A stretch of 64,000 nucleotides of DNA from Acidisarcina sp. (lineage in GTDB: Bacteria > Acidobacteriota > Terriglobia > Terriglobales > Acidobacteriaceae), in the NCBI GenBank assembly GCA_035539175.1, contig DATLIY010000007.1, forward strand, positions 620,001 through 684,000, in the 5' to 3' direction. The translations under genes and the position numbers were made by a program. This document shows positions 9,337 through 34,990 of the stretch, one piece after another. Positions within the stretch are counted from its first letter, which is position 1, and every line of letters begins with the position of its first letter. Below the pieces are notes generated by a model, which saw only the letters and a list, made by a program, of their open reading frames with translations, did no database searches and was not told where the DNA came from.

Positions 9337-9337
9337 T

Positions 9338-11803
9338 ATGGAGAACGAAGCGCTCGAATTGCAAAAGTCCGAAGGGCCGGGTGCAACAGGAAAGCCGACA
9401 GGAACAGCAGTAAAGAAGGATGCTCAGGCCGATTCCGCCACTGCCACGCCTGACCAGCAGGCTCAAGGGGCGAAGCGGACCGACAGCTTTCTCTACGGCA
9501 TTCCCCAGCTTGGCGTTTCGCAGATAGAACGCCAGGTCCCCGCGAATGAGCCGCCTCCCATGCCGGCGAATGCTGACCTGAAATTCATAGGCAAACCGAC
9601 GCCGCGCTATGACGGAGCCGCGAAGGTAACCGGCACTGGCAAGTACACAGCGGACATTCATCTGCCTGGGATGCTCTACGCGAAGATGGTCACCGCTACG
9701 GTTCCCCATGCGCGTGTCCTCTCCATCGATACCTCGGCTGCGGAGAGCTATCCCGGGGTTCGCGCTGTTCACGTGATCCAGCATGTGATGCGCAGTGCGG
9801 AACTGCGCGATCCCTCCCAGGAAATGCCTTCCCGCTATCCAATCGTGCGCTACGCCGGACAGCCCATGGCAGCGGTTGCAGCCACGTCGCAAGCCGCTGC
9901 AAATGAAGCTGCCGCTCTGGTCAAGGTTCAATATGAACCCATGGCGTTTGTCGTGGATCGCGATGCCGCGCGTGCCTCCGATGCTCCGCTGGTCTACCCC
10001 GGTCCTGCCGACCAGGCAGGCACCGCAGGCGGCGGAGGAGGCCCCAAAGACGTGCCGCAGGTCGGCAATGTCCACGGCCCCGCCCGCAAAAGTGTCGGCG
10101 ATGTGGCTCGCGGATTCGCGGAAGCCGACATCGTGGTGGAAGAGGAGTATTACACGCAGGTCCAGACACACTGCGCACTTGAAACCCACGGTGTCGTCGC
10201 CGACTGGAAGCCCGAGGAATTGACGGTCTACGCCTCCACCCAAGGCACGTCCAGCGTGCGCAATGAACTTGCAGAGGTCTTCAAGCTCCCCAAGAGCAAA
10301 GTTCGCGTCATCACCGAGTACATGGGTGGCGGATTCGGCGCTAAGTTTGGAGGGGGAAATGAAGGCGTCGTCGCTGTCGAGCTTTCGCGGAAAGCCAAGG
10401 CTCCTGTCCGCCTGATGCTGGATCGCAAAGAGGAGCACATCGTCTGCAACCGCCCGGACTCCCACCAGAAATTAAAGATCGGGTCCAAGCGGGATGGCAC
10501 CCTTACCGCAATCCAGCTCACCAGCTATGGCACAGCCGGGGTTGGCACCGGAGCAGGCACCGCCGGCCCGGCAACCAACATGTATAAGTCTCCTAATCTG
10601 CTGACCGAGGAGTACGACGTTTTCATCAACGCCGGTCCTGGCGCAGCTTTTCGCGCTCCCGGCCATCCCCAGGGATGCTTCGCGCTCGAGCAGTCCATCG
10701 ATGCGCTTGCCGAGAAGCTCGATCTCGATCCGTTGGAATATCGCAGCCGAATCGACGAAAGCCCTGCCCGCAAAGTCGAACGCCAGATCATTCTGGAAAA
10801 GAGCAACTGGCGCAATCGTCACCGCGCAGGCGCCGATGCAGGTCCAATCAAACGCGGCATGGGGATCGCTCAGTCTGTCTGGTATCGCTTCGTCAATCTC
10901 AATTCCTCCTGCGAAGTTCGCATATCCAAAGATGGCTCGATCGAGCTGATGTCTGCAGTTCAGGACATCGGTGGTGGCACCAAGACAATGCTGGCGCAGG
11001 TTGTTGCGGAGGAGTTCGGCATCCCGCCCCAGAGCGTCGTCATCCGCATCGGCGATACACGCTACCCGATCGGTCCTGACTCCGGCGGCAGCGTAACCAC
11101 CGGCTCCATCTCTCCTGCGGCACGCAGCGCCGCACTTCAGGCAAAGCAGCATTTTCTCGCCGCGATTGCGCCTTCGCTGGGCGTCTCTGCCGACCATCTT
11201 ACGATTGCCGATGGGCGCGTCAGCGTAACCTCCGATCCCTCCCGCTCCTACACCCTGCGGCAGGCTGCAGCAAAGATGCCCACGGACGAAATCTCCGCGC
11301 GCGCCACACGCGTTCCCGATTACACACGGGACAGGCTCACCTATGGCGGCGTCGATTACGTCGAGTTGGCTGTCGATACGGAGACTGGCCGCGTCCACGT
11401 CGAGCGCGTCCTCGGAGTCCACGATTGTGGCCGCCCGATAAATCCGCTCGGGGTGATCAACCAGATCAACGGCGGAATCCTTCAGGGCATCTCCTATGCA
11501 CTCTTCGAGCAGCGCATCATGGACCGCGGCAAGGGGCACATGCTCAACACGAATCTTGAAAACTACAAGATCCTCGGCGCGCGCGAGGTTCCGCAGATCG
11601 ACGTGATCCTGATTGAGAACTACATCGCGCAAAGCTCTACCGATGCTTCAGGAATTGGCGAATCCGCAGGCATTATCACTCTCGCGGCCGCTGTTGCCAA
11701 TGCGTTCTACAATGCCACCGGCGTGCGCATGCGACGGATCCCGATGACCCCGGCGCGCGTTCTTGCCGCGCTCGGCAAAACCAATCAGGAGATGCACGCA
11801 TGA
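9338..11803 (+). CDS. Molybdopterin-binding subunit of aldehyde/xanthine-type oxidoreductase (PaoC/YagR-like)
   Basis: 821 residues. After a ~75-residue low-complexity N-terminal extension, the aldehyde oxidase a/b hammerhead begins at KFIGKPTPRYDGAAKVTG. The Mo-binding core shows GGGFGAKFGGG and FRAPGHPQG, and the GIGESAG segment near the C-terminus holds the conserved catalytic Glu (about E775). It hydroxylates aldehydes or N-heterocycles at a Mo-pyranopterin centre. AAGGGAG upstream fixes ATG 9338, 1 nt after the small-subunit stop. Export would ride on the Tat leader of the Fe-S subunit. The long polar N-terminal extension is unusual for the family. Confidence 0.93.
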   Translation: MENEALELQKSEGPGATGKPTGTAVKKDAQADSATATPDQQAQGAKRTDSFLYGIPQLGVSQIERQVPANEPPPMPANADLKFIGKPTPRYDGAAKVTGTGKYTADIHLPGMLYAKMVTATVPHARVLSIDTSAAESYPGVRAVHVIQHVMRSAELRDPSQEMPSRYPIVRYAGQPMAAVAATSQAAANEAAALVKVQYEPMAFVVDRDAARASDAPLVYPGPADQAGTAGGGGGPKDVPQVGNVHGPARKSVGDVARGFAEADIVVEEEYYTQVQTHCALETHGVVADWKPEELTVYASTQGTSSVRNELAEVFKLPKSKVRVITEYMGGGFGAKFGGGNEGVVAVELSRKAKAPVRLMLDRKEEHIVCNRPDSHQKLKIGSKRDGTLTAIQLTSYGTAGVGTGAGTAGPATNMYKSPNLLTEEYDVFINAGPGAAFRAPGHPQGCFALEQSIDALAEKLDLDPLEYRSRIDESPARKVERQIILEKSNWRNRHRAGADAGPIKRGMGIAQSVWYRFVNLNSSCEVRISKDGSIELMSAVQDIGGGTKTMLAQVVAEEFGIPPQSVVIRIGDTRYPIGPDSGGSVTTGSISPAARSAALQAKQHFLAAIAPSLGVSADHLTIADGRVSVTSDPSRSYTLRQAAAKMPTDEISARATRVPDYTRDRLTYGGVDYVELAVDTETGRVHVERVLGVHDCGRPINPLGVINQINGGILQGISYALFEQRIMDRGKGHMLNTNLENYKILGAREVPQIDVILIENYIAQSSTDASGIGESAGIITLAAAVANAFYNATGVRMRRIPMTPARVLAALGKTNQEMHA

Positions 11804-20510: not shown

Positions 20511-20625
20511 GGCTTTGCAGTAGATGCTGCCGCCTGCGCTCACCCTTGCATAGTCCAGATGAACCAGGGTTTACGCGGTCCTTGCCCATCGCGAAACCGG
20601 CAGAGTAAACTCACCCTCACACCTC

Positions 20626-21663
20626 ATGGAAGTATCCGCCAGCAACGAAATTCCTGAGCGGCGGAGCCGTCGCCAGTCCTATTGGACAGCATTATGCTGG
20701 ACAGTGTTGAGTTGTAGTTCTCTGCTGCCCGGCCTGGGCTGCCGTGAACCCGCACGCGTTACCATCGCAGTCATTCCACGCACCACGGCCAGCATGCAAT
20801 GGGAACCGATGCATCGTGGCGCCGAGGCAGCCGCCGCGGATCTTGGAGTGCGCATCTATTGGAACGCGCCAATGCGGGAAGACGACGTGGGAGGACAGAT
20901 TGCCATGGTGGGCCGGGTTATTGGAGAAAACTACCAGGGACTGGTGCTCGCTCCCGATCAGGCACTGGCATTGATTACACCCGTCCGTCGCGCGACCTCG
21001 CGTAAGCTTCCCACGGTCATTGTTGGATCCCCTCTGCCGATGGAACCTGGCGGCAGGCTCTCCTACATTCTGAATGATGAAGAGGAGGGCGGGCGCATTG
21101 CCGCGCGCCGGGTGGCTACTCTGCTCCACGGCCATGGTTCCATTGCCATCCTGGGCATCAACCCGGACATTGCCGGAATCATGACCCGCGCACGCAGCCT
21201 GGAACAGTTTCTGGCAGAAAACTATCCGGACATTCGTGTCGTCCAGAAGCTTATGGGCTCCTTCAACATGCCTCGCGAACAGCAGATTGCGGAGCAAACC
21301 CTGCAGTCCAATCCCGATCTGGACGCGATTGTCGCCCTTATGTGGACGTCGGCTCGCGGAGCTATATCGGCCGTCGATGCACAGCCGCACAGCCGCATCA
21401 AGGTAATCGGCTTCGATCCGGATGTGATTGCGTTTCAGGATCCGGCGCTGGATTCTGTCATCCTGCAAAACAATCCTGAAATAGGCAGGCGGGCGGTCCA
21501 GCTCATCGATGCCCAACTGCACGGGAAGACAGTGCCTCCGCTTACCACGCTGAAGCCGTTACTGGTTACGCGGGAAAACGCCGACTCTCCGCAGGTTCGC
21601 GAAATGACCTCCATGGACTGGAGGCCGGGCGCTCTGCACTGGAACTGGAGTACAACGCCGTGA
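20626..21663 (+). CDS. Periplasmic sugar-binding-like protein (Peripla_BP_4) of a signalling unit
   Basis: 345 residues. An N-terminal hydrophobic stretch ends at Cys39 in a lipobox-like LPGLGC, although the -3 residue is Gly rather than Leu. The rest is a ribose-binding-protein fold: VTIAVIPRTTASMQWEPMHRGAEAAA, YQGLVLAPDQALALI, and IAILGINPDIAGIMTRARSLEQF. No transporter genes adjoin it. Instead its stop overlaps the GTG start of a sensor kinase, so it most likely presents a sugar to that kinase, as in PBP-coupled two-component systems. Ligand unknown. Confidence 0.87.
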   Translation: MEVSASNEIPERRSRRQSYWTALCWTVLSCSSLLPGLGCREPARVTIAVIPRTTASMQWEPMHRGAEAAAADLGVRIYWNAPMREDDVGGQIAMVGRVIGENYQGLVLAPDQALALITPVRRATSRKLPTVIVGSPLPMEPGGRLSYILNDEEEGGRIAARRVATLLHGHGSIAILGINPDIAGIMTRARSLEQFLAENYPDIRVVQKLMGSFNMPREQQIAEQTLQSNPDLDAIVALMWTSARGAISAVDAQPHSRIKVIGFDPDVIAFQDPALDSVILQNNPEIGRRAVQLIDAQLHGKTVPPLTTLKPLLVTRENADSPQVREMTSMDWRPGALHWNWSTTP

Positions 21664-23858
21664 AGCTGCCCACCATAAGCCGCCGTGGAATCCTGGTTGC
21701 CTCGCTGCTTGCGACTACGCTCCTGCTGGCCGGTATTGGCGTGTGGGCCCACCTGCATAGTCCGAAACGCGGCCTGCCTTACCACGATTCCTTCGCAAAT
21801 GGTGAGGCGGATGAGTGGACGGCATTCGGCGGCACATGGGCGGTCGTCAACGGCTCCATGCGAAACGATTCGGATGAGCGCGGAGCCAAGCTGATCACGG
21901 GCTCTCCTTATTGGCGGGATTACTCCGTTGAGGCAGATGTGATGTTGCTGGGCCTCGCCGGGGATGCGGGTCTCATCGTTCGCTCCAGCAACGAAGAGCA
22001 GGGGGTGGACGCCTACTCTGGCTACTATGCAGGGGTGCGAAACTTTGACAACTCCCTGGTTCTCGGACGTGCGGCCCATGGATGGATGGAGGATGTTGTC
22101 CGGCTGAACTCCTTGCAAACCAAGGTTCATGCATTGCAGTGGTATCACCTGAAGGTGCTTGTCTATGGATGTGAGATCGTTGCTACCGCCGACATTCCCT
22201 CGAAGGCAGACCCCACCACGGTAGCCATCGAGGATAAGGATTGCGCCAGCTCCGGACGGATCGGCCTACGCTCGTTCTCTTCCGGAGGAGTATGGCGGAA
22301 CGTAGTTGTGCGCCCGGCGACACGTGAGGACCTGGTCGCGATGCTCGCTCGAGCCCCGCTCGGTAAAGCTTCCGCGGTTCTACCATCTACGGGAGAGAAC
22401 CCCGAGCACCCCGGCTTTTACTCCGCTACTCCGCACGGCGACCCGGACATGCTCCGTTCCGATCTGCGGACACAGCCCATCAGCAGTCTGCGGCTCGTCT
22501 CCTGGGCTAAACCCACCACAGCTACGGTGCATGGCGTTGTCATCCTCACCTCGCCTGCGCTTTACATTCAGGATTCGACGGGTGGCATCTCGGTTCCCCA
22601 CCCCACTGCGCCACCCCTCAAGGTTGGCGACGAGGTAGAAGTGACCGGGCAGGTAACTCCCGGAGCGTTCAGTTCCGCACTGGAGCACGCCAACGTGCGG
22701 GTGCTGTGGGAGGGCGCGCCGATGCCTGCGGTCTCCGTCGCCGCCTCCCAGGCCGCTACCGGAGCCTTTGACGCAACCTTCATCGAGGTGGAAGGCCGCC
22801 TGCGCGCCAAGAGCTATGGCCCGGACAATACTCTCATCTACGACTTCGATGCGGGTCCGCAATCGTTTCGCGCCATTATGAATCGCGGCCGCGGCGAGTC
22901 CGTCTTTGGCAAGCTCAAGCTGAACAGCCTGCTCCGACTGCGTGGAGTCTGTGTGGTTTCGCCCGCATACACGCAGAACCTTACTCCCTTCGTTCTGTTG
23001 CTGCGCTCCACCGACGACATGAACGTGCTGGCAGGACCGCCATGGTGGAGCGCGGGAAATGTGATCGCAATTGCCATCGCGATTCTTCTCCTCGCCCTGG
23101 TGGCCAACTTCTTCTACAGCCGTGCAGAGCGGTGGCGTCTGCGCGCAGTGCTTGAAGAGCGCGAACGGCTTGCTCATGAGATGCACGACACCATCGCGCA
23201 AAGCTTTGCCGGCATTGGCTTCCAGCTGGAAGCGATTCGCAATGGCATTCCCAGCGAACTGCCCACCACGCATCAGCAACTCGACCTTGCCAGCGCATTG
23301 GTTCGCCATAGCCACGAGGAGGCGCGACGCAGCATCGCCACCCTGCGCCCGGAGTCGCTTGAGTCGGGAGATCTTCTTACGGCTCTGGAGATCTGTGCGC
23401 GGCGCATGGTCGCCGGAGGCGCCGTCAAAATCGTCACGTCCAGCAGTGGAGACATCCGCCAAATGCCACTGCGCCTTACAGACACGCTCTACCGTATCGG
23501 ACAGGAGGCAATCGCCAATTCCATCCGCCATGCCCACCCCTCGACCATTACAATCTCGGTTGAATTCAAGAAGAATATGGTTCACCTCCTGCTCGCAGAC
23601 GATGGCGTCGGCTTCACGCCGGGCGGCGACCTGCGGGGCTTCGGCGTCCGTGGCATGAGGAAACGTGCCGCTTTCATCTCCGCCGCGATTCAGATCCTCA
23701 GCGAACCGGGAAAAGGCACAACGGTGCGGGTCGTCGCGCCGCTGCCGCCCCGCCTCACCCTGGCCTCATGGCCAAAATTCTTATGGAAATTTCTTAGGGA
23801 GTACCCATCCAATGCCGAAACTACCAGGCAGCCCCATCCAAATTCTTATCGTGGATGA
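21660..23858 (+). CDS. Hybrid-sensor NarL-type histidine kinase with LamG-like extracytoplasmic domain
   Basis: 732 residues from GTG 21660 (GTGA overlap). TM1 (about 10-29) precedes a concanavalin/3-keto-disaccharide-hydrolase-like domain (FANGEADEWTAFGGTW to SGRIGLRSFSSGGVW, about 40-215). An OB-like beta domain follows (about 275-450, TATVHGVVILTSPALYIQD). TM2 (WWSAGNVIAIAIAILLLAL) leads to a HisKA_3 dimerisation domain with phosphoacceptor H509 in AHEMHDTIAQSF and an HATPase (DDGVGFTP, GFGVRGMRKRA). It should sense extracytoplasmic carbohydrate directly or via the binding protein and phosphorylate the next gene's product, which overlaps it by 47 bases. Confidence 0.92.
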   Translation: MKLPTISRRGILVASLLATTLLLAGIGVWAHLHSPKRGLPYHDSFANGEADEWTAFGGTWAVVNGSMRNDSDERGAKLITGSPYWRDYSVEADVMLLGLAGDAGLIVRSSNEEQGVDAYSGYYAGVRNFDNSLVLGRAAHGWMEDVVRLNSLQTKVHALQWYHLKVLVYGCEIVATADIPSKADPTTVAIEDKDCASSGRIGLRSFSSGGVWRNVVVRPATREDLVAMLARAPLGKASAVLPSTGENPEHPGFYSATPHGDPDMLRSDLRTQPISSLRLVSWAKPTTATVHGVVILTSPALYIQDSTGGISVPHPTAPPLKVGDEVEVTGQVTPGAFSSALEHANVRVLWEGAPMPAVSVAASQAATGAFDATFIEVEGRLRAKSYGPDNTLIYDFDAGPQSFRAIMNRGRGESVFGKLKLNSLLRLRGVCVVSPAYTQNLTPFVLLLRSTDDMNVLAGPPWWSAGNVIAIAIAILLLALVANFFYSRAERWRLRAVLEERERLAHEMHDTIAQSFAGIGFQLEAIRNGIPSELPTTHQQLDLASALVRHSHEEARRSIATLRPESLESGDLLTALEICARRMVAGGAVKIVTSSSGDIRQMPLRLTDTLYRIGQEAIANSIRHAHPSTITISVEFKKNMVHLLLADDGVGFTPGGDLRGFGVRGMRKRAAFISAAIQILSEPGKGTTVRVVAPLPPRLTLASWPKFLWKFLREYPSNAETTRQPHPNSYRG

Positions 23859-24453
23859 CCACCCGGTCGTCCGCGCCGGACTTACCAGCATGCTTGGCAC
23901 GCAGCCTGAGCTGAACGTGATCGGCTCCGCCTCCAGCGGCGAAGAGGCGCTCGACATGCTCCGGCAGGCCACTCCCGATGTGCTGCTGCTTGACCTCCGT
24001 ATGCCCGGCATGAGCGGAGTGGACACCATGCTCGCCATCAAGCGTGCGGGCATCAACACTCGTATCATCATCCTCACCAGTTTTGAAACGGACGAGGACA
24101 TCTATCGCGCGGTTCAGGCCGGCGCGCAAGGTTACCTGCTCAAAGACACCTCTCTGCGGCAGATGGTGGACGCCATCCGTGCCGTCGATGCAGGCAAGCG
24201 TTATTTCCCGAGCGATATCGCCTCGCGCCTTGCTGAGCGAATGATGCGCACCAACCTCACCTCGCGGGAGCTCGAAATCCTCAAGATGCTTGCCAAGGGC
24301 CCGACCAACAAGCAGATTGGGCACGCGCTCGGCATCAGCGACAACACGGTTCGCAATCACGTCAACAGCATCATCGAGAAGCTCGAAGTCTCCGACCGGA
24401 CCGAAGCCGCAACCACAGCAATTCAGCGCGGCATCATCGACGTCGACGACTGA
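23812..24453 (+). CDS. NarL/FixJ-type response regulator
   Basis: 213 residues. Receiver domain with acidic pair DD (15-16), phospho-acceptor D61 in LLLDLRMPGMSG and K111 in YLLKDTSLRQM. A LuxR/GerE helix-turn-helix follows (about 149-205, LTSRELEILKMLAKGPTNKQI and DNTVRNHVNSIIEKL). AGGGAG 10 bases upstream supports ATG 23812, inside the kinase gene's 3' end. It is the output of the preceding binding protein and sensor kinase. The glycoside hydrolase genes directly downstream are likely targets, though I see no proven binding site. Confidence 0.95.
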   Translation: MPKLPGSPIQILIVDDHPVVRAGLTSMLGTQPELNVIGSASSGEEALDMLRQATPDVLLLDLRMPGMSGVDTMLAIKRAGINTRIIILTSFETDEDIYRAVQAGAQGYLLKDTSLRQMVDAIRAVDAGKRYFPSDIASRLAERMMRTNLTSRELEILKMLAKGPTNKQIGHALGISDNTVRNHVNSIIEKLEVSDRTEAATTAIQRGIIDVDD

Positions 24454-24640
24454 GACCTCCTTCTACGGAGCTTCCATTCTCGTTTGCGACTGCTGCGGCA
24501 GGTGAGGAAGAGCCGCGTCCACAACCCATCCAGCCTCTGCGCTGCGGCAGGTCATAGAACATGTGAACTATGGACCTTGCGCCCTATACGGGTGACACTA
24601 AACCACGTCGGTCTTTGTTCCAATTCTCCCCGGAGTAGCC
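24454..24640 (+). promoter_or_regulatory. Leader region before the glycoside hydrolase genes with a short direct repeat
   Basis: Carries an exact 12-base direct repeat GCTGCGGCAGGT (24492-24503 and 24541-24552), 49 bases apart. It could hold sites for the adjacent response regulator. No convincing -35/-10 pair was found. Otherwise I see nothing in it. Confidence 0.3.
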
Positions 24641-26671
24641 ATGCCCTCGCTGGAACGGCGTAATTTGCTAAAGCTCCTTGCACTTGCAGGGGCAGATGTA
24701 TCTACCCATGCAATTAGCAGTCGCACCGCATCCGCACTGGCCTCGGCATCGCAGCAGGAGTCACGCACTCCCTCAGTTGTCAGGAACCGTGCCCCACTTG
24801 CGCAAAATGCCTTCTATACGCTTCCCCTTGGTTCGGTGCGGCCAATCGGATGGCTGCGCGATCAACTGCGCATTCAGGCCAATGGACTCGGCGGCCACCT
24901 CGACGAGACATGGAGCGACGTGGGAAGCAACAGCGGATGGCTCGGTGGCACCGGAGAGTCCTGGGAGCGCGGCCCTTACTTCCTCGACGGGCTGATACCG
25001 CTGGCCTATCTGCTCGACGATGAGCGGCTCAAGGCCAAGGCGCAGAGATTTGTTGACTGGACGCTGACGAATCAGGCCGCTGATGGCATGCTTGGCCCAA
25101 AGAGCAATAACGACTGGTGGCCGCGAATGGTAATGCTCAAGGCGCTGGCCCAGTATCAGGAAGCGACAGGCGATCCCCGCGTCATCCCCGCACTCTCTCG
25201 CTACTGTGCGCATCAGCTCTCCGTTCTGCCCGCCCGTCCCTTGAAGGATTGGGGCAGGTTCCGCTGGCAGGACAATGCCCTCGTCGTCGTCTGGCTCTAC
25301 AATCGCACCGGTGATCCACAATTGCTGGACCTGCTGCAACTGCTCCATAAGCAGGGTTACGACTGGCAGGCTCAGTTCGCGGACTTCAAGTACACCCAGC
25401 CGATTACACCGGAGTTCATCAAGCTCAACAGTGGCGGCGGCCTGAGCGATCTCGCGCTCGCCACCCACGGGGTCAACAACGGACAGGCCATCAAAGCCGC
25501 TCCTGTCTGGTCCCTTGTCTCCAACCGCGACGAGGACCGCCATGCCCTGCAACGCCAGCTTCATGCGCTCGATGCATATCATGGCCTGCCCAACGGCATG
25601 TTCTCCTGCGACGAGCATTTTGCCGGACTCAATCCCTCGCAGGGATCGGAGCTCTGCACCGTGGTCGAAACCATGTTCTCGCTTGAGCAAGCCCTCGCCA
25701 TCCTGGGAGATGCAGCGCTCGGCGACCGCCTGGAAAAAATCGCGTTCAACGCATTGCCTGGCACCTTTACCGATGACATGTGGGCACACCAGTATAATCA
25801 GGAGCCCAACCAGGTAGAGTGCAGCCTCCATCGCAAACCCTGGACAACGGATGGCCCGGAATCCAACCTCTTCGGGCTCGAACCCAACTTTGGCTGCTGC
25901 ACCGCCAACTTTCATCAGGGATGGCCAAAGTTTGCAGCCAGCCTCTGGATGGCATCGCCGGATGACGGCCTGGTTGCGACCGCCTACTCGCCATGCGAAG
26001 TCCACGCTACAGCAGCCGGAGTCCGTGTCCATCTGCAGGAAGAGACCGAGTATCCTTTTCGCAACACGATCCGCATTACCGTCAACCCAGCCACTACTGC
26101 TCGCTTCCCTCTCAGCCTCCGCATCCCCGCATGGGCCTCTGGCACAGTCCTCAAGATCAATGGAAGATCCGAACCGGCTCCCGCGCCAGGCAGCTTTGCG
26201 CGGATCGACCGCACATGGAAATCCGGAGATCAGGTAGAGCTTGTCTTCCCTGCGGCTCTTCGTCTCGTCCGCGGTTACAACGATTCCATCTCGGTCGAGC
26301 GAGGCCCGCTGGTCTTCTCTTTCCCCATTGCGGAGAGCTGGGTCAAGTTGCAGGACCGCGGGCTGACCGCGGACTGGCAGGTTTTTCCCGCTTCGCAATG
26401 GAACTACGCCCTCGATGTAAATGCGGAGAATGTGAGTTCGCTGCCGGTTCAGGAGTTACCCGTCGGGGCAGCACCCTTCAGCCTGAAGGAAACACCCGTA
26501 AAGATAGAGGCCCGAGCGCGCAAGCTGCCTGCATGGCGAGCCGAGGACGGCGTAGCCAATCCCGTACCGCCAGGCCCGGTCACCAGTCCGCAGCCTGAAG
26601 AGAAGATCACGCTGGTTCCCTACGCAGCCGCAAAGCTTCGGATTACCGCCTTTCCGCAACTGCGAAGCTGA
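24641..26671 (+). CDS. Glycoside hydrolase family 127 / DUF1680 (beta-L-arabinofuranosidase-type)
   Basis: 676 residues. A Tat-like leader (LERRNLLKLLALAG) indicates export. The (alpha/alpha)6 barrel starts at LPLGSVRPIGWLRDQLRIQANGLGG, and the C-terminal beta-sandwich contains LRIPAWASGTVLKINGR and SVERGPLVFSFPI. A Cys pair C419-C420 in NFGCCTANFHQGW and VECS (E393, C394) fall where the family keeps its nucleophilic Cys and zinc ligands. GH127 enzymes remove beta-L-arabinofuranose, but the DUF1680 clan also includes other activities, so the substrate is provisional. Stop and next gene are close; the locus continues with other hydrolases. Confidence 0.9.
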   Translation: MPSLERRNLLKLLALAGADVSTHAISSRTASALASASQQESRTPSVVRNRAPLAQNAFYTLPLGSVRPIGWLRDQLRIQANGLGGHLDETWSDVGSNSGWLGGTGESWERGPYFLDGLIPLAYLLDDERLKAKAQRFVDWTLTNQAADGMLGPKSNNDWWPRMVMLKALAQYQEATGDPRVIPALSRYCAHQLSVLPARPLKDWGRFRWQDNALVVVWLYNRTGDPQLLDLLQLLHKQGYDWQAQFADFKYTQPITPEFIKLNSGGGLSDLALATHGVNNGQAIKAAPVWSLVSNRDEDRHALQRQLHALDAYHGLPNGMFSCDEHFAGLNPSQGSELCTVVETMFSLEQALAILGDAALGDRLEKIAFNALPGTFTDDMWAHQYNQEPNQVECSLHRKPWTTDGPESNLFGLEPNFGCCTANFHQGWPKFAASLWMASPDDGLVATAYSPCEVHATAAGVRVHLQEETEYPFRNTIRITVNPATTARFPLSLRIPAWASGTVLKINGRSEPAPAPGSFARIDRTWKSGDQVELVFPAALRLVRGYNDSISVERGPLVFSFPIAESWVKLQDRGLTADWQVFPASQWNYALDVNAENVSSLPVQELPVGAAPFSLKETPVKIEARARKLPAWRAEDGVANPVPPGPVTSPQPEEKITLVPYAAAKLRITAFPQLRS

Positions 26672-26739
26672 TGCAATTCCGCTCCAGCGCCGTAGCACTA
26701 CAACGCATAAGAGCACGCACACAGAAACAGGAGATAGTA

Positions 26740-27891
26740 ATGAACGTCGGTAAGTGGATCGCAACATTCGTAGTGATGGCGGCAAGCGCATCCGCCCTAG
26801 CCCAGCAGCCAGGTCAGCAGCGCTGGACCGAGGAAAAGGCGGCGGCATGGTATGCCCGGCAGCCATGGCTGGTAGGCAGCAACTTCGTCCCGCAAAATGC
26901 CATCAACGAGCTGGAGATGTGGCAGGCCGACACCTTCGATCCCGCCGAGATCGATAAGGAGCTTGGATGGGCCGAAGGGATCGGCATGAATACGATGCGC
27001 GTCTTTCTGCAGGACCAGTTGTGGACGCAAGATGCACCTGGCTTCAAGTCGCGAATCAATACCTTCCTCGAGATCGCTGCCCGGCATCACATCAAGCCCC
27101 TGTTCGTCCTCTTCGACTCCTGCTGGGAGTCCAATCCCAAACTAGGGCCGCAGCACCCGCCAATCCCCGGAGTGCATAACTCAGGCTGGGTCCAGAGCCC
27201 GGGCGCAAAGTCCCTGATGGATCCCTCCACCTATCCGCATTTGAAGGAATATGTACAAGGCGTCGTCGGCGCATTCGCCAAGGATGACCGCATCCTGGGT
27301 TGGGACATCTGGAACGAACCCGACAATGGAAACGCCGGAGTGAATGAACCCAAAAATAAGACCCAGTTAGTGGAAGCTCTTCTGCCGCAGGCTTTCTCCT
27401 GGGCGCGCGAGATGCACCCGACCCAGCCACTGACCAGTGGAGTGTGGAAAGGCGACTGGAGCCACCCCGACAAGGAAAGCGCAATGACGAAGATTCAGCT
27501 TGCCGAATCCGACGTCATCTCTTTCCACAACTATGGCTGGCCGGAAGACTTTGCCGCCAAGGTGCAGGAACTCAAGTCCTACCATCGGCCAATCATCTGC
27601 ACCGAGTACATGGCTCGAGGAGCAGGCAGCACCTTCGACACGATTCTGCCGATAGGAAAGCATGAAAATGTCGCCATGATCAATTGGGGATTCGTTGCCG
27701 GCAAGAGCCAGACGTACCTTCCCTGGGACTCCTGGAAAAGACCCTATGTGCTCACCCAACCCGACGTATGGTTCCACGATATCTTCCATGAGGATGGGAA
27801 ACCCTATCGTCAGCAGGAGATCTATCTGATCCACCAACTGACCGGCCGCGGCAACGTGCAGCCTCCGTCGGCAATGCAAGGTGAGAAGTAG
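26740..27891 (+). CDS. Exported GH5-like glycoside hydrolase (cellulase-family TIM barrel)
   Basis: 383 residues from ATG 26740, which has AGGAG upstream; a longer frame starting at 26671 lacks support. A signal peptide (about 1-22) leads into a TIM barrel with GMNTMRVFLQDQLW, acid/base E193 in DIWNEPDN and nucleophile E289 in IICTEYMARG, the usual Glu pair of clan A glycosidases. Related proteins are often named xylanase or cellulase without proof. It follows the GH127 gene by about 70 bases on the same strand, so they may be co-expressed for hemicellulose or arabinoglycan turnover. Confidence 0.85.
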   Translation: MNVGKWIATFVVMAASASALAQQPGQQRWTEEKAAAWYARQPWLVGSNFVPQNAINELEMWQADTFDPAEIDKELGWAEGIGMNTMRVFLQDQLWTQDAPGFKSRINTFLEIAARHHIKPLFVLFDSCWESNPKLGPQHPPIPGVHNSGWVQSPGAKSLMDPSTYPHLKEYVQGVVGAFAKDDRILGWDIWNEPDNGNAGVNEPKNKTQLVEALLPQAFSWAREMHPTQPLTSGVWKGDWSHPDKESAMTKIQLAESDVISFHNYGWPEDFAAKVQELKSYHRPIICTEYMARGAGSTFDTILPIGKHENVAMINWGFVAGKSQTYLPWDSWKRPYVLTQPDVWFHDIFHEDGKPYRQQEIYLIHQLTGRGNVQPPSAMQGEK

Positions 27892-27925
27892 CTCCAGACT
27901 CACTCATCACTGTTCACGAAGCAGC

Positions 27926-27969
27926 CTGAAGGGGAGCGTCAATGGCAACGCAATCTCGCTTCCCTTCAG
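27926..27969. terminator. Bidirectional hairpin between convergent genes
   Basis: 13-bp stem CTGAAGGGGAGCG (27926-27938) with 27957-27969, one G-T wobble, loop of 18 bases. It lies between the GH5-like gene and the convergent acetyltransferase gene and slightly overlaps the stop of the latter. Confidence 0.5.
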
Positions 27970-29243
27970 ATTCGTAAGAATATCTTGCGCCGGTAGAGCC
28001 ACAGCAGAAACAGCCAGTAGATACCGAGGATAGCGATGCCCAGCAGCAGCGGCTCAAGCGCAGGTCCGAGTATCTGAAATACACCGTGCCCAAGATGGAT
28101 AAGCAGGCTGCTCTGGATAAAGGGTTCCGCCATGTCAGCGATCAGGTAGGCCGCAATGGAGTTGCTGCCAACGACGACTAGCGGAAATGCCCATTTGCGG
28201 TAACCCTTCCCATCAATCAGCTCGCTGAAGGCCGCCTGCAGCAGGAAGCAGACCCCTCCGCTGAACAGGACCCAGCTCGGCGTCCAGATACGTTTCACAA
28301 TCGGGCAGATCCCCAGCGCATGCAGCAACAGGGATGCAGCAATGCAGGCAACTCCCACCACGATGAAGCGCTTGATTGGGAGTGCCGGAGCAGACTCGCG
28401 GAACCATCGACCCCACGCCAGTCCCAGAATCATCGTGCCCAGAGTAGGAATAAAACTCAGCGTCAAGTAGCCGCCGCCGTTGTCTACAAAACGGGACTCG
28501 CGCGGAAACAGGTTCAGGAACCATTGATCGAACGCAGCGCCCAGGTTGCTGTTCTTGTTCCAGTGCGCTGCAAAGCCGGAAAAGTTGTGGTGCCAGCCTG
28601 CAGGAACGCCAACCGCCGCATAGTCGAATCCCGGGCCGGGAGCGGGATACAGCGCCCACGCCAGCCAATATCCTCCAAGAATTACTCCTAGAATCGTCCA
28701 TTGCTTGCGCGGCGATAGAAACGAAAGCAGAAAAAGGAATGGATAGCCTAGCCCAATCTGGGTCAGCGTGTCCTCAAAGGTAAAGTACGTCTGGGAGCTA
28801 TGCATCGAGCGCAGGAAAATACCCAGCGACACCAGCACCAGCGCACGCCAGAATGTATGGCCGAGCATGCGCTGAAAGCTCTCTCCCTTGCGCCTGCGGC
28901 TGGCGATGGAGTAAGGAAGTGCCACCCCAACCAGAAACGTAAACGAAGGCTGAATCAAATCGTGAAGCGAGCATCCTGCCCACTCCACGTGACTCTGGTT
29001 GTAGGCGAGGAATCGCCAGATCGTGCTTCCCGGGAAAGAGTGCGCGATCTGGGAGAAATGCAGCACCTCACCCATCATCAGCAGCATCACGAAGCCCCGG
29101 TAGGCATCCACCGCAACATTGCGAGCGACCGGAGCCTGTACCGCGGTGCGCAGCTCGGCTGGCGTTGGTTTATTTGAAATTGGTTTGCCTGATGTTGGCT
29201 GGTTTGGCGCCTCGATCTCCGGCGTCTCCCGCGATAGGATCAT
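27966..29243 (-). CDS. Multipass membrane acetyltransferase-like protein (HGSNAT/NagX, DUF5009 family)
   Basis: About 425 residues from ATG 29243, with GAGGA 8 bases upstream. An N-terminal Pro/Thr/Ser-rich segment precedes about ten to eleven helices. [18 protein letters not shown] and [20 protein letters not shown] are hallmarks of the heparan-alpha-glucosaminide N-acetyltransferase / NagX family, which uses cytoplasmic acetyl-CoA to acetylate amino sugars across the membrane. It lies beside GH109 and GH20 N-acetylhexosaminidases, which supports an amino-sugar role. An upstream ATG at 29303 is in frame but less supported. Confidence 0.85.
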
Positions 29244-29551
29244 AGGTCTATCCTCGAAGGGCCCAATTGGAAGCAATCCATCTAGCCCAATAGCCGGGAG
29301 CATCTGCTTTCGTCCACCGCTCCCGCAAATATTGTCCTGTATCTTTTTGTTTCTGTAGTGCTATCGTTATCTTGCCTTATACTTCGCATGAGAATTAGGT
29401 GTGAAGTTCGAGTATTTTTTTTCACGCAAGTCTATAGCAGCACCTGGAAAGCAATCCAGCATAACGCGAAATGGCACCGTTGAAAGCGGCGGGCCTGCAG
29501 TTGGCGAAATACGTCGAACAGCATTTTATTTTTACTTTCGGAGAATGAGGA
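29244..29551. other. Divergent intergenic region, 308 bases
   Basis: Upstream of both the acetyltransferase (-) and the GH109 gene (+). It is AT-richer than its surroundings and holds a TATACT -10-like hexamer at 29378-29383 on the plus strand, without a matching -35. No coding sequence or clear palindrome was found. Confidence 0.4.
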
Positions 29552-30931
29552 ATGGATGGTCACGATGCAGGCTCTCGCTCTTTGCTTTCCCGCAGACATT
29601 TCCTAGAACTCGGCGCCATGACAACCGCGGCAATTGGCTTGAATCAAGCCAGTGCGGCCACCTCCCATCCGGCATCGAAATCCGCACCTGGATCGAAATC
29701 CGTCATCGATATGCCTTTCACCGCCGCCAATCCTCGGGTTGGCTTCATCGGAACCGGCAACAGAGGAACCTCGCTCCTGAAGGACTTTCTGGCAGCAGAC
29801 GCCCAGATCGTCGCCATCTGCGATGTCGTCGCGGAAAAGGCGCAGAACGCCCAGTCGCTCGTAGAAAAGGCCGGACAGAAGTCTCCCTCCCTCTACACCG
29901 ATGGCGACCTGGCATTTGAAAAGCTGGCTGCGCGCGAAGATCTCGATTTGGTTGTCATTGCCACTCCATGGAACTGGCACGTCAAGATGGCCGTCTTCGT
30001 GATGGAACACGGCAAGCACGCCGCCGTCGAGGTTCCAGCCGCAACCACCATCGAGGATTGCTGGAAGCTGGTCGATACGTCCGAAAAGACCCAACGCCAC
30101 TGCATCATGCTGGAGAACTGCTGCTACGGCTATAACGAGACTCTCATCCTGAACATGGTTCGCGCCGGGCGCTTCGGAGATCTGCTCTACGGCGAGGCCG
30201 CATACCTTCACGACCTTCGCGACGAACTCTTCTCCAGCAAGGGAGAAGGCTTGTGGCGCCGCACCGTACACACCCAGCGCGACGGCAATCTCTATCCCAC
30301 GCATGGCTTGGGCCCCGTCGCGAACTACATGGGAGTCAACCGCGGCGACCTCTTCAGCTACATGGTTTCCATGAGCAGCCCACAGCGCGGACTCGACGAA
30401 TATCGCAAGTCGCATCTGCAGCCGGGAGACCCCAGGCAGGCGGAGAAATACATTACCGGCGATCTGAACACCTCGCTCATTAAGACTGCGAGTGGCCTCA
30501 CCATTACGCTGAAGCATGATGTCTCCAACCCGCACCCTTATGACCGGATCAACGTGATTGGAGGCACCAAGGGCGTCTTTGCGGACTATCCGCCGCGCAT
30601 CTACTTCGATGGGCAACCGGGTGGAGAAGCGTGGGGCTCAATCGATGCCTTCAAGTCCGAGTATGAGAATTCGTGTTGGAAGCAGGAGGGAGAGAACGCC
30701 CGCAAACTCGGCGGTCACGGCGGAATGGACTTCGTCATGGTCTACCGGCTCCTGCAATGCATGCGGAATGGACTTGTGCCGGACCTCGACGTTTACGATG
30801 CGGCGGCATGGTCGGCACCGGGGCCGCTCAGCACGCTCTCGGTCGGCCAGGGCAGCGCGCCGGTCAAGTTCCCGGATTTCACACGCGGGTTGTGGAAGAA
30901 ACGAAACGGCTCACCGATTGGAAAAGCTTAG
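29552..30931 (+). CDS. Exported GH109 family / Gfo-Idh-MocA oxidoreductase (alpha-N-acetylgalactosaminidase-like)
   Basis: 459 residues. A Tat-type leader (SLLSRRHFLELGAMTTAAIG) precedes an NAD-binding Rossmann domain (PRVGFIGTGNRGTSLLKDF, IVAICDVV). The C-terminal domain has AAVEVPAATTIEDCWKLVD, YLHDLRDELF and RDGNLYPTHGLGPVANYMG, matching GH109 enzymes that hydrolyse alpha-N-acetylgalactosaminides using NAD. GGAG at 29540-29543 fits ATG 29552. Neighbouring GH20 and HGSNAT-like genes suggest joint N-acetylated glycan breakdown. The activity is predicted from family motifs only. Confidence 0.9.
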   Translation: MDGHDAGSRSLLSRRHFLELGAMTTAAIGLNQASAATSHPASKSAPGSKSVIDMPFTAANPRVGFIGTGNRGTSLLKDFLAADAQIVAICDVVAEKAQNAQSLVEKAGQKSPSLYTDGDLAFEKLAAREDLDLVVIATPWNWHVKMAVFVMEHGKHAAVEVPAATTIEDCWKLVDTSEKTQRHCIMLENCCYGYNETLILNMVRAGRFGDLLYGEAAYLHDLRDELFSSKGEGLWRRTVHTQRDGNLYPTHGLGPVANYMGVNRGDLFSYMVSMSSPQRGLDEYRKSHLQPGDPRQAEKYITGDLNTSLIKTASGLTITLKHDVSNPHPYDRINVIGGTKGVFADYPPRIYFDGQPGGEAWGSIDAFKSEYENSCWKQEGENARKLGGHGGMDFVMVYRLLQCMRNGLVPDLDVYDAAAWSAPGPLSTLSVGQGSAPVKFPDFTRGLWKKRNGSPIGKA

Positions 30932-30994
30932 TTCCGTGAATTCCATATCACCTGCAGCAGCACATCGGCTCTAAGATTGAGAGGGGTTGTTACA

Positions 30995-33046
30995 TTGACT
31001 ACCGTTCGGTTACGTTTTCACGCGTTCGTCGGCCTTTGTCTTTTTTTATGCCTTAGCGCTCACCCTGCAATTCATGCGCAATCGTCTTCAACCCTTTCCA
31101 TCATGCCGCTTCCTGAGCATGCTCAGGTCGGCACTGGAGCCTTCCCCATCGATGGCTCATTGGGAATCAAGCTTGAGGGATACACCGAGCCCCGCCTTGT
31201 TCACGCGCAGCAGCGATTTCTCGATCGCCTTGCCGCAGAGACCGGGATTCCCATGTGGGGTACGCGGCAGAACAAGCCCAACATCTTTATCAGCACTGGC
31301 GGTCCATCGGCCAAGGTACAAAAGCTCGACGAGGACGAGTCCTATCAATTGACGGTTTCTCCGTCAGAAGTCCACCTTCGAGCCGCGAATCCCCTTGGCG
31401 TTCTCCACGGCCTGCAGACCATTTTGCAACTCGTTCAGGTTTCTCCAACGGGATTTGTGGTGCCGGCGGTAGAGATTCACGACAGCCCGCGATTTCCCTG
31501 GCGTGGTCTCATGATCGACTCCGGCCGTCACTTCATGCCCCTCGATGTCGTGGAGCGCGATCTCGACGGTATGGAAGCCGTCAAGCTCAACGTCCTGCAC
31601 TGGCATTTATCTGAAGATCAGGGCTTCCGCGTCGAAAGCACCAAGTATCCCCTTCTGCAGCAGGATGGCTCCGACGGCCTCTACTACACCCAGGCGCAGA
31701 TTCGCGACCTGATCGCGTATGCCAGCGATCGCGGTATCCGCGTGGTTCCCGAGTTCGATATGCCCTGCCACACAACGGCATGGTTTCCCGGTTATCCGCA
31801 ACTGGCCAGTGGCAAGGGTCCCTACACGACCGCTCGCCAATGGGGCGTCCTCGATCCAGCCATGGACCCCACCCGCGACAGCACCTATAACTTCCTGGAC
31901 GGATTTATCGGTGAGATGGCTGCACTCTTTCCCGATGCCTACTTCCATATCGGCGGAGATGAGTGCGATGGCAAGGAGTGGAATGCGAACCCCTCCATCC
32001 AGAGATTCATGCAGGCTCACCAGTTGAAGGACAATGCCACGCTCCAGGCATACTTCACCGGGAAGATACAAAAGATTGTCGCCAGGCACGGCAAGATCAT
32101 GGAGGGATGGGACGAAGTGCTCCAGCCCGACACGCCCAAAGATGTTGTCATCCAATCCTGGCGCGGTCCGCAGTCGCTGGCAGACGCAGCGCACCGCGGC
32201 TATCGTACCCTGCTCTCCACTGGCTACTACATCGACCTGAATCAATCCGCAGCCCAACACTACGCGGTCGATCCGCTGGCCGGAGCCGCCGCATCGCTCA
32301 CACCCGAGGAGCAACACCACATCCTTGGAGGTGAAGCAGCGATGTGGTCCGAGTACGTCACTCCAGAAAACATGGATACCCGGATCTGGCCACGAACCGC
32401 TGCCATTGCTGAACGGCTGTGGTCCCCGCAGGACGTTCAGGATGTCGCTTCCATGTATCGGCGGCTCGATATCGTCTCGCAAAAGCTGGAGTACTACGGC
32501 CTTCAGCCAAAGTCCATCTCCGACCTGATGCTGCGTCGCATGGCCGGCAATGCTGACCCGGCTCCGCTTCGGGTTCTGGCCAGCGTGGTACAGCCTCCCC
32601 AGGGCTATTCGCGTGGGGCGCTCACTCCTTATACAAGCCTCACGCCACTCAATCACCTGGTCGATGCCGTACCGCCTGAGAGCGACGAAGCACGCCGCTT
32701 CCTCGCCCTTGTGCAGCGGCTCGTGGCAGGCAACGCCACTCCGCAGGATTGGCAACAGGCCCGTGAATCTCTCACTACCTGGCGTGACAATGACGCAAAG
32801 CTTCAGCCCATCCTGCCGCTTTCGGATCTGACAAAGGAACTCTCTCCACTATCCGCAAACCTGCGCGAGGTCGCGGAGATGGGTCTGCAGTCTCTGGATC
32901 AACTGCAGAACCATCAGTCGATCTCCGCCGCTGAGCGGGACCAGAAGATGGCATTCCTGAAGAATTCCCAGAAACCGCAAGCTGTTTTGCTGAACAAAAT
33001 CGCGCCTGCAGTTGCTACTCTTGTTGAAGCAGTCAGTCCTCGATGA
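30995..33046 (+). CDS. Exported GH20 beta-N-acetylhexosaminidase
   Basis: 683 residues from TTG 30995, chosen because GAGAGGGG lies 8 bases upstream; TTG 30977 is in frame but overlaps that site. A signal peptide (about 1-29) is followed by a GH20b-type N-terminal domain and the catalytic barrel from FPWRGLMIDSGRHFMPLDVV. The D322-E323 pair in HIGGDEC is the polarising Asp and catalytic Glu of substrate-assisted hydrolysis. GEAAMWSEYV and WPRTAAIAERLWSP complete the site. It releases terminal GlcNAc or GalNAc in the periplasm and is probably co-expressed with the GH109 gene 63 bases upstream. Confidence 0.94.
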   Translation: MTTVRLRFHAFVGLCLFLCLSAHPAIHAQSSSTLSIMPLPEHAQVGTGAFPIDGSLGIKLEGYTEPRLVHAQQRFLDRLAAETGIPMWGTRQNKPNIFISTGGPSAKVQKLDEDESYQLTVSPSEVHLRAANPLGVLHGLQTILQLVQVSPTGFVVPAVEIHDSPRFPWRGLMIDSGRHFMPLDVVERDLDGMEAVKLNVLHWHLSEDQGFRVESTKYPLLQQDGSDGLYYTQAQIRDLIAYASDRGIRVVPEFDMPCHTTAWFPGYPQLASGKGPYTTARQWGVLDPAMDPTRDSTYNFLDGFIGEMAALFPDAYFHIGGDECDGKEWNANPSIQRFMQAHQLKDNATLQAYFTGKIQKIVARHGKIMEGWDEVLQPDTPKDVVIQSWRGPQSLADAAHRGYRTLLSTGYYIDLNQSAAQHYAVDPLAGAAASLTPEEQHHILGGEAAMWSEYVTPENMDTRIWPRTAAIAERLWSPQDVQDVASMYRRLDIVSQKLEYYGLQPKSISDLMLRRMAGNADPAPLRVLASVVQPPQGYSRGALTPYTSLTPLNHLVDAVPPESDEARRFLALVQRLVAGNATPQDWQQARESLTTWRDNDAKLQPILPLSDLTKELSPLSANLREVAEMGLQSLDQLQNHQSISAAERDQKMAFLKNSQKPQAVLLNKIAPAVATLVEAVSPR

Positions 33047-33053
33047 AACGTGC

Positions 33054-33112
33054 GATCCCGAGGCTTCGGGATCAACATACCTGCCAGGCTGCTACCGTGG
33101 CCTGGCAGGTAT
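33054..33112 (+). terminator. Tandem hairpins after the GH20 gene
   Basis: First hairpin GATCCCGA/TCGGGATC (33054-33073, 8 bp, loop GGCT). Second is a perfect 13-bp stem ATACCTGCCAGGC (33077-33089) with 33100-33112, loop of 10 bases, followed by a T-rich stretch (TTTCGTTTCG). Together a likely terminator. Confidence 0.7.
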
Positions 33113-33166
33113 TTCGTTTCGTGAATCCTTGCTCCCTAGCCACGAATTGAGCTTCGCTATATCTCT

Positions 33167-34990
33167 ATGACCTCTCTCGACTCCGCACAGATTGCTTCGT
33201 TTGCCCTCGATGGCAAGAAAAAAAGCTACAACCGCTTCCTCCTGCTCGTTGCTGGGCTTGGAGGTCTTCTGTATGGAGTTGACGTCGGGATTATTGGCGG
33301 AGCCCTCCCCTACCTCGAAGCTACTTCGGGCCTCAATGCCGGCCAGCTCTCTATCATTGTTGCGGCGGTGCTGCTGGGCAGCGTAATCTCCACCCTGTTT
33401 GCCGGCCTGCTGGCGGACTGGATGGGACGCAAGACGCTCATGGCCCTTAGCGGCCTCACGTTTGTTCTCAGCATCCCCATGATCGCGCTGTCTCACGGAT
33501 ATGGCCCACTGTTTCTCGGCCGGCTCCTGCAGGGCATCAGCGGCGGACTTATCGGGGTCGTCGTTCCCCTCTATCTCGCTGAGTGCCTCTCCGCTTCCAC
33601 CCGCGGAAAAGGAACCGGTATCTTCCAGTGGTTGCTTACCCTCGGAATCGTCGCCGCGGCTCTGATCGGAATCTACTATAGCTATCGCGTGGAGGCCGTT
33701 GCCCGCGTCTCCGATGCCGCCAGCATCCTCGCCTTTAAGGATCAGGCCTGGCGCCGCATCTTCTGGGTTTCCCTTCCTCCCGGCCTCTTGTTCGTCATTG
33801 GCAGCTTCCTGGTTGCAGAGTCTCCGCGGTGGCTTTTCCAGCACGGGAAAAAAGAACTCGCCTACGCCGCTCTCCTGCGCTCCCGCAGCCCGGAGCAGGC
33901 TGAGGTCGAGATCAAGGAGATGGAAGAAACCGCACTCGCCGCGCGTTCCAAGTCCGCAGCCGGGGCGGTCAAAGACTCGCTCCTCCGCAGAAAATATGTA
34001 ATCCCGTTTGTGCTGGCCTGCGTCATCCTTTTTTGCAACACCGCCACTGGCGTCAACTCCATCATCGGATACAACACCGGCATCCTGCTGCAGAGCGGTC
34101 TCTCCGATGTCCGCGCTCACTGGGGATATGTCATCCTCACCATGGTGAACTTCCTGATGACGATTGTGGGCATGACCCTGGTCGATCGAAAGGGTCGCAG
34201 GTTCCTGATGATTCTAGGCACCGTGGGCATCACCCTATCTGTAACCGTAGTTGGTACATTATTTTTAAAGACCGAAAAATCCAACGTCGATTGCCAGAAT
34301 ATTGTTCAGCAGATGGTTGGCCCAGGCCAGGAACTCACGCTGCGATTTGACCAGAACGAAGCCAACAAACTGCTTGCCGCCAAGGGGTACACCGGCGGCG
34401 AGGTCAACGCCGACCATGCGTCCCTCGCCGTCATTTATTCCTACGGAGACTTCACTGCCGCAACCACATTTGTGCGCTCCGATGATCCAGCCGGAGCTCC
34501 CATTCAGGTCACCCGCGCCAGTTGTGTGCCAACGAACAGGATTGAAGCTTTTTTCAAGAACCCTTTCGCGGACCTCAACGCCGCGCGTACTGCGCCGCTC
34601 AAGATTGAACGGGCTTTGATCGGTCGCGTGCCCGATGCCAGGCATGGCTGGATGGTGGCAATTGGCCTCTATGCATTTATGGCGTTCTACGCGCTCGGCC
34701 CGGGCGTATGCGTGTGGCTTGCGCTATCGGAGTTGATGCCTACGCGCATCCGCTCCAACGGTATGAGCATCGCTCTGGTCATCAACCAGATGGTCTCCAC
34801 CACGCTCGCAGCCATCTTTCTACCCGTCGTCAGCAAGTATGGCTACTCCACCATGTTCTTTCTTTTCGCGGCCTTTACAGTGGTGTATCTGATCACCGCG
34901 GCCTTCTTCCTGCCGGAGACCAAGGGCAAGACTCTTGAGGAAATCGAAGAGTACTTCGAGATGGCAGGCAAAAAGAGACACGCAAATTAA
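33167..34990 (+). CDS. Sugar-porter MFS transporter with an extended periplasmic loop
   Basis: 607 residues, about 120 more than typical sugar porters. Twelve transmembrane helices carry family motifs: GVDVGIIGGALPYL, LADWMGRKTLM, ESPRWLFQHGKK, LVDRKGRRFLM, SELMPTRIRSNG and PETKGKTLEEIEEYF. The extra sequence, about residues 368-490, lies between TM9 and TM10 and should face the periplasm. It holds two cysteines (NVDCQN, ASCVP) and could fold as a small domain. The gene sits downstream of the GH20 gene past a terminator, so it is probably its own unit importing released sugar. Substrate unproven. Confidence 0.9.
   Translation: MTSLDSAQIASFALDGKKKSYNRFLLLVAGLGGLLYGVDVGIIGGALPYLEATSGLNAGQLSIIVAAVLLGSVISTLFAGLLADWMGRKTLMALSGLTFVLSIPMIALSHGYGPLFLGRLLQGISGGLIGVVVPLYLAECLSASTRGKGTGIFQWLLTLGIVAAALIGIYYSYRVEAVARVSDAASILAFKDQAWRRIFWVSLPPGLLFVIGSFLVAESPRWLFQHGKKELAYAALLRSRSPEQAEVEIKEMEETALAARSKSAAGAVKDSLLRRKYVIPFVLACVILFCNTATGVNSIIGYNTGILLQSGLSDVRAHWGYVILTMVNFLMTIVGMTLVDRKGRRFLMILGTVGITLSVTVVGTLFLKTEKSNVDCQNIVQQMVGPGQELTLRFDQNEANKLLAAKGYTGGEVNADHASLAVIYSYGDFTAATTFVRSDDPAGAPIQVTRASCVPTNRIEAFFKNPFADLNAARTAPLKIERALIGRVPDARHGWMVAIGLYAFMAFYALGPGVCVWLALSELMPTRIRSNGMSIALVINQMVSTTLAAIFLPVVSKYGYSTMFFLFAAFTVVYLITAAFFLPETKGKTLEEIEEYFEMAGKKRHAN

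Follow-up and report, generated by a model that had tools for sequence, protein, structure and literature searches.

Why would the gene for a periplasmic sugar-binding protein overlap that of a sensor histidine kinase, with no matching permease beside it? The question is raised by a locus of Acidisarcina sp. lying in a 64,000-nucleotide stretch of DNA, here called the window (assembly GCA_035539175.1, contig DATLIY010000007.1, positions 620,001 to 684,000; G000:C7:620001-684000 in our numbering), from a genome of 3.9 Mb that is 99.96% complete. Three consecutive plus-strand genes encode a sugar-binding lipoprotein of the Peripla_BP_4 family, the proposed co-sensor (20626..21663; Pfam E 3e-32), a membrane sensor histidine kinase (21660..23858) and a NarL-type response regulator with Pfam Response_reg and GerE domains (23812..24453). 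We propose, with a probability of roughly 60%, that this trio is a three-component carbohydrate sensor wired to a regulon of receptors and hydrolases, the signal probably being an arabinofuranosyl glycan; in doing so, we infer the contacts between the proteins, the binding of the operator, the ligand and the direction of regulation. Acidobacteria are common soil bacteria, and little has been mapped of the way in which they decide to attack the polymers of plants. If true, the proposal would give this glycan sensor, which is present at full length in 24 of the 150 genomes sampled from the family (Acidobacteriaceae), a concrete operator and a regulon that can be predicted.

A recurrent three-gene set

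The binding-protein and kinase genes share 4 bases, the kinase starting at GTG 21660, and the kinase gene (stop at 23858) shares 47 with the regulator gene when the latter is started at ATG 23812 rather than at the mechanical open reading frame start, 23665. The chosen start yields 213 residues, matching the close relatives L033, L050, L051 and L052. Since the three genes overlap, one operon is the natural reading. The overlap of the first two genes had already been recorded in a first-pass annotation made from the letters of the window, and all three genes lie where it placed them. The lipobox cysteine of the binding protein, Cys39, is invariant in 36/36 sequences, and the structure of this protein was modelled with a predicted local distance difference test score (pLDDT) of 90. 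In the kinase, two hydrophobic stretches (approximately residues 9-31 and 461-489, TM1 and TM2) flank a CBM66-like domain and an OB-like region, which puts this segment on the extracytoplasmic side; the core, with HisKA_3 (invariant His509) and HATPase_c, occupies 23157..23747 on the plus strand, as defined by Pfam and the alignment of relatives.

When 150 genomes of the family were searched with the outer part of the kinase, 33 full-length places were obtained, the window included, to which a separate search added one locus; all 34 were fetched, and the tally was made on all open frames. In 34 of 34 loci the binding-protein gene immediately precedes the kinase gene on the same strand, and in 30 the regulator gene immediately follows it there, the exceptions being L039, where the regulator is convergent, and L041, L067 and L068, where it is not adjacent. 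L067 and L068 thus consist of a binding protein and a kinase, with neither an adjacent regulator nor an outer-membrane receptor within the sequence fetched (that of L067 is truncated upstream). In five further loci the CBM66-like domain is encoded separately beside a kinase carrying the OB-like region, and the binding protein is kept in 5/5, whereas none of six kinases with the head but without the OB region has one (0/6); these eleven loci are a fetched subset of the weaker matches. Within the kinase family, OB region and binding protein accordingly co-occur (39/39 with OB, 0/6 without). In a phylum-wide search of 297 genomes that scored five candidates in each, full-length matches (E 1e-20) were confined to the same family, outside of which the OB region was found alone.

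Among 1,152 within-genome re-pairings in the five genomes that have several sets, no pairing of binding proteins with kinase heads correlated better in its distances than the observed one (r 0.849, 32 loci). This result shows joint inheritance rather than contact, as inheritance in a block would yield the same correlation. The first-pass annotation had taken the trio for one sensory unit, and the recurrence of the same three-gene set, together with this pairing, speaks for that view; the kinase architecture, which it had called unusual, is real, although not unique, given its full-length occurrence in the family.

The permease family that would mark a CUT2 ATP-binding cassette (ABC) importer, BPD_transp_2 (PF02653), had 0 matches in the genome, compared with 12 of 14 control genomes positive, other ABC permease families being unsearched, and no permease was found among the neighbour proteins of relatives that were scanned (20 queries). 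The earlier remark that a transporter is absent consequently holds for the BPD_transp_2 family. The genome contains 13 Peripla_BP_4 matches, and no kinase-family homologue was detected by BLAST around nine of the other 12. Profile matches of the binding protein include AraP (E 5e-42) and XylFII (E 8e-41), with transport binding proteins scoring equally well or better, and its model aligns with XylFII (5xsj), AraP (6sw4) and GanP (6gq0) at VIA Z 32-33 and with BT1754 (2x7x) at Z 30.8. An attempt to identify the ligand from the pocket residues was abandoned, as no sugar could be named; the alignment rows for RBP 190, 215 and 235, in which the known pocket residues are not found, were disregarded.

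The extracytoplasmic head of the kinase

In the model of kinase residues 34-462 (pLDDT 86), a beta-sandwich precedes strands of a more barrel-like arrangement. This sandwich corresponds to the CBM66-like domain (PF06439; residues 47-218; 21798..22313, plus strand; Pfam 3keto-disac_hyd E 4e-10), and its best structural match is CBM66 of Bacillus subtilis (4b1m), with Z 22.8 and a root-mean-square deviation of 1.8 over 156 residues at 24% identity, ahead of the galactocerebrosidase lectin domain (Z 21-22), thrombospondin (18.6) and legume lectins (~17). A sequence profile built from 33 relatives likewise reaches CBM66 in the PDB (E 6e-4), and Cys171 and Cys195 are invariant in 33 sequences. By modelled fold and by sequence, the head is related to CBM66, and more closely so than to the 3-keto-disaccharide hydrolases; of the initial description as a LamG/3-keto-disaccharide-hydrolase-like domain, the glycan-type character is retained and the closest kind is revised. 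A related domain occurs in tandem at L044, where an arabinofuranosidase (8822-11191; ArabFuran-catal, presumably GH54) carries two CBM66-like (PF06439) domains that are 32 and 37% identical to the head; the enzyme adjoins a kinase having a CBM66-like head but no OB region.

The OB-like region (residues 269-461; 22464..23042, plus strand) is less sharply defined. Its matches to DUF5666 and tRNA_anti-codon in Pfam fall under their respective cut-offs, the match to the OB-fold protein RPA14 has E 0.99, and Foldseek relates it to the OB protein Teb1 at a TM-score of 0.2 only; the original OB-like label is plausible on these sub-threshold and poor matches, and weakly backed by them. Similar modules in 2-4 copies are present in other acidobacterial proteins (19 loci, L138-L157 minus L146, which was excluded as no OB gene was called), and the three of these proteins that were scanned with Pfam are all sensor kinases. 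The idea that the OB-like region is the dock for the binding protein was dropped, because the OB-bearing proteins are accompanied by a binding-protein match at 0/19 of these loci, of which L140, L143 and L152 are cut at the contig end upstream.

A candidate operator and the genes behind it

Upstream of the trio, 59 bases ahead of the binding-protein start codon, lies the palindrome TAGTCCAGATGAACCA (20551..20566, no strand assigned), and a second one, TAGAACATGTGAACTA (24555..24570, likewise unstranded), is located 70 bases ahead of the start codon of a gene for a GH127-type beta-L-arabinofuranosidase (24641..26671, plus strand; Pfam GH127 domains and PDB matches to GH127 enzymes), the proposed direct target. 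With at most one mismatch, the common pattern TAGTNCANNTGNACTA occurs in the window at these two sites only and in none of 100 shuffles of the window, and the dyad of the first site recurs upstream of the homologous binding-protein gene in relatives. The pattern originated from a dyad scan of 12 upstream regions, which yielded GTCCA-N2 in L051, L052, L053 and the window, and was then widened by eye using the region upstream of the window's GH127 gene. In 42 held-out loci (722 kb), from which the seed loci L051-L053 were omitted, 13 sites with at most one mismatch were found, 12 of them in the promoter zones of binding-protein, receptor, GH127, cluster-6 or GH63-like genes, which cover 4.8% of the bases; 399 permuted half-sites averaged 0.85, and the only control with a high count, 11 sites, nearly copies the motif itself.

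The palindrome is present in 14 of 36 binding-protein upstream regions, a set that includes the four seed loci, against 0.14 expected from shuffles. The TRGTNCANNTGNACYA form was fixed after the locus matches had been seen, and neither this count nor that for the whole genome is held-out. The genome of the window has exact TRGTNCANNTGNACYA sites in two places, ahead of the binding-protein gene and on contig C8, and across 27 genomes such sites occur in 10 of 13 that bear the kinase versus 2 of 14 without it. A scan for promoter and terminator consensus sequences was left unused, the counts being 1 promoter-like element versus 2.0 in shuffles and 7 terminator-like elements versus 4.6.

GH127 homologues at 62-72% are encoded in 9 of the fetched trio loci, in addition to one cut copy at 61%, and GH127 lies under the operator both in the window and in L033, L054, L055 and L056. 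A large OMP_b-brl_4 outer-membrane receptor, by gene-to-gene distance, is close to the trio in 29 of 33 relatives: in 20 it is divergent beside the binding-protein gene, in four it comes right after the regulator, in four it is one gene away, and in L039 it lies farther off on the same strand. Even at an assumed background of 30%, such proximity has a probability of 7e-12; first-look receptor candidates number up to 142 per genome, of which at most ~32 were scored. By a stricter measure, a receptor within 5 kb of the kinase core, 22 of 34 loci qualify. Other recurrent neighbours in relatives are TPR proteins, GH127, GH35/42-like and GH63-like enzymes and a family of ~850 residues, with a sulfatase also seen; GH92 enzymes (L044, L045, L047) and the GH54-type enzyme of L044 were not counted, as their kinases have neither OB region nor binding protein. 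The receptors scanned are of the OMP_b-brl_4 type, and no SusD-family protein was found among the 20 neighbour queries scanned, a subset of the neighbours. In the same genome as the window, the C8 site is a fully symmetric exact palindrome at L119 8534-8549, between the divergently transcribed genes of a TPR protein, a likely lipoprotein, and an OMP_b-brl_4 receptor (L119 3562-12407; G000:C8).

Four relatives provide a natural contrast. The regulators of L036, L037, L038 and L066 have an unusual architecture, in which the receiver is kept, GerE is weak or missing (in L066 it scores 0.5 bits above the cut-off) and a LacI-type helix-turn-helix is terminal. No TAGTNCANNTGNACTA site with up to two mismatches was found in these four fetched loci, and matches to the widened pattern fall outside the binding-protein promoter. 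A different site, GNAAGCGNTTNC, is found at the binding-protein or receptor promoter in three of the four (not L038). Taken together, the four loci have 10 distinct sites in 70 kb, compared with 5 in 333 kb of 15 GerE-type loci; this pattern was chosen post hoc and the comparison loci were hand-picked. Nine of the 10 map close to where a binding-protein, receptor or GH51 gene begins, and the tenth, in L038, is inside the regulator gene. Among the five of the GerE-type loci, two precede a receptor gene and a third is just within one. Seven non-LacI loci, among them L067 and L068 with no adjacent regulator, also have no palindrome near a promoter, so that absence of the palindrome is telling only in combination with the other DNA-binding domain and the other site. 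It is possible, if still tentative, that one kinase with two inputs, polymer ends on its CBM66-like head and freed sugar on the lipoprotein, drives a scattered acidobacterial regulon resembling polysaccharide utilization loci, in which OMP_b-brl_4 receptors and glycoside hydrolases are joined by TPR proteins that stand in for SusD, and that regulator domain and operator changed together, GerE with TAGTNCANNTGNACTA and the added LacI helix-turn-helix with GNAAGCGNTTNC. Such a two-input sensor, if real, would be testable with purified domains.

The proposed circuit, its rivals and its known counterparts

In the circuit that we propose, the lipid-anchored binding protein, having no importer of its own, would signal a small sugar to the membrane kinase, the head of which, a CBM66-like domain on the OB-like region, would be positioned to report glycan ends. 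The kinase would phosphorylate the NarL-type regulator, which would in turn bind TAGTNCANNTGNACTA and control the sensor operon itself, GH127 and the TPR/receptor pair on another contig, in response to an arabinofuranosyl-containing plant glycan and the sugar released from it. Because GH127, a beta-L-arabinofuranosidase family, is found under the operator in the window and in four relatives, arabinofuranosyl glycans are our best guess for the signal; the guess is read from the target genes, and the neighbours in relatives are diverse.

Several observations weigh against this proposal. With respect to the operator, the GH127 site in the window carries one mismatch; no site with up to two mismatches is present in 18 of the 36 binding-protein upstream regions (four LacI-type, seven with a site elsewhere in the locus and seven with no promoter-near site), so that lacking it does not set the LacI type apart; five of the 12 exact sites in the 13 kinase-bearing genomes lie elsewhere than at the trio, which accounts for seven; and genome-wide totals of exact sites are no higher than those of a reversed-pattern control. 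With respect to the signal, CBM66 is a fructan module that binds fructan ends, the sugar-pocket positions of the binding protein are partly retained (W59 in 32/32, R188 in 28/32), and GH51 and GH43 are uncommon beside the trio in relatives (3/33 each). With respect to the regulon, the window trio has no OMP_b-brl_4 receptor within 23 kb (the nearest is at 23.6 kb), as is the case for 4 of 33 relatives, L067 being cut on that side; the C8 receptor shares 65% identity with a receptor that adjoins a LacI-type trio; and the GH51 alpha-L-arabinofuranosidase on C8, which adjoins the TPR gene convergently, has a LacI-like palindrome upstream in place of the operator, for which reason it was discarded as a direct target.

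Part of this evidence would fit a three-component sensor for another signal, be it fructan ends, the substrates of the downstream amino-sugar set or glycans that differ between species. We consider this unlikely, if still worth weighing: the best structural match of the head is a fructan module, the neighbours in relatives are diverse (GH127, GH35/42-like, GH63-like, sulfatase) and the C8 GH51 has no operator, and the window contains at 27966-34990 a probable amino-sugar set comprising a NagX-like acetyltransferase (minus strand), GH109-like and GH20 enzymes and a sugar porter. However, ahead of the genes of that set the window scan revealed no operator at a threshold of one mismatch, and none of the window genes from the GH5-like one to the sugar porter adjoins the trio in the relatives fetched, whereas GH127 is recurrent and has the operator in five loci. 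The first-pass annotation had noted glycan hydrolases directly downstream, which is correct, as GH127 begins 187 bases past the regulator; its further suggestion that 24641-34990 is jointly controlled was rejected as unsupported, GH127 being the only one of these genes with a site at that threshold.

An improbable alternative is direct glycan sensing by the kinase through its own CBM66-like head, the binding protein being a periplasmic buffer or scavenger that merely shares the operon. The six homologous kinases with the head but with neither OB region nor binding-protein gene, which nevertheless have a convergent regulator, would be expected under such a scheme, as would the OB modules at 19 further loci with no binding-protein gene. 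On the other hand, the binding-protein gene is kept in every full-length and split locus (34/34 and 5/5), the observed pairing fits best, and binding proteins of known sensor systems (the XylFII-LytS complex, BT1754) are among the matches. That the binding protein instead serves an ABC importer encoded elsewhere in the genome, its kinase gene merely following, is very hard to credit: most of its solved sequence relatives are indeed binding proteins of ABC transporters, but the BPD_transp_2 search described above, which left other ABC permease families unsearched, and the 20 neighbour queries produced no permease.

A dedicated sensing binding protein that works with a kinase and a regulator is, in principle, already known. 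In CuaDSR of Ruminiclostridium cellulolyticum, CuaD binds CuaS and an ABC importer is controlled from a constitutive operon (PMC10384115). Compared with that system (PMC10384115), the sensor proposed here is similar in having binding protein, kinase and regulator in one operon, with the binding protein dedicated to sensing, and differs in having no BPD_transp_2 permease, in the CBM66-like head of its kinase and in its likely targets, receptor and hydrolase genes. XylFII has been solved in complex with the outer part of its kinase LytS (PDB 5xsj). XylFII, AraP and GanP are homologous Peripla_BP_4 proteins, and the trio shares with the CuaDSR and XylFII-LytS type both the co-encoded genes and a binding protein homologous to known sugar-sensing ones. 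AraP and GanP act in sensing, and the kinases of the XylFII-LytS, AraP and GanP systems are not known to carry a CBM66-like or OB-like head and have ABC importers as targets.

Bacteroides hybrid systems similarly sense a released monosaccharide with a periplasmic-binding-protein fold, that of BT1754 being titled a fructose binding periplasmic domain (PDB 2x7x). There, the parts are joined in one polypeptide, whereas here they are three proteins from separate genes, one of them a lipoprotein. The outer-membrane partners also differ, being SusC/SusD in the hybrid systems and an OMP_b-brl_4 barrel, often with a TPR protein, in the relatives of the trio. The RsgI anti-sigma factors of Clostridium thermocellum employ proteolytic sigma-factor release instead of a kinase and regulator and are not known to work with a binding protein. 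What they have in common with the trio is the presence of extracellular carbohydrate-sensing domains on a membrane signalling protein. As far as our searches show, novelty lies in how the kinase is built, in its link to receptor/TPR/hydrolase loci of Acidobacteria and in the operator, a literature search at title and abstract level, largely outside the subscription literature, having returned no published description of this system.

Finally, the ~850-residue neighbours mentioned above, cluster 6, form a group of their own, comprising L050:15730-18282 and nine homologues (L040, L051-L055, L061, L064 and L077). For the member that was scanned, Pfam gave no match at E 1 and NCBIfam none at 0.01, and its PDB matches reached E 0.3 only. 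With a Tat-like start, mutual identities of 48-82% and several members behind the palindrome, these proteins are, by sequence and context, a candidate for an as yet unrecognised family of polysaccharide-active enzymes.

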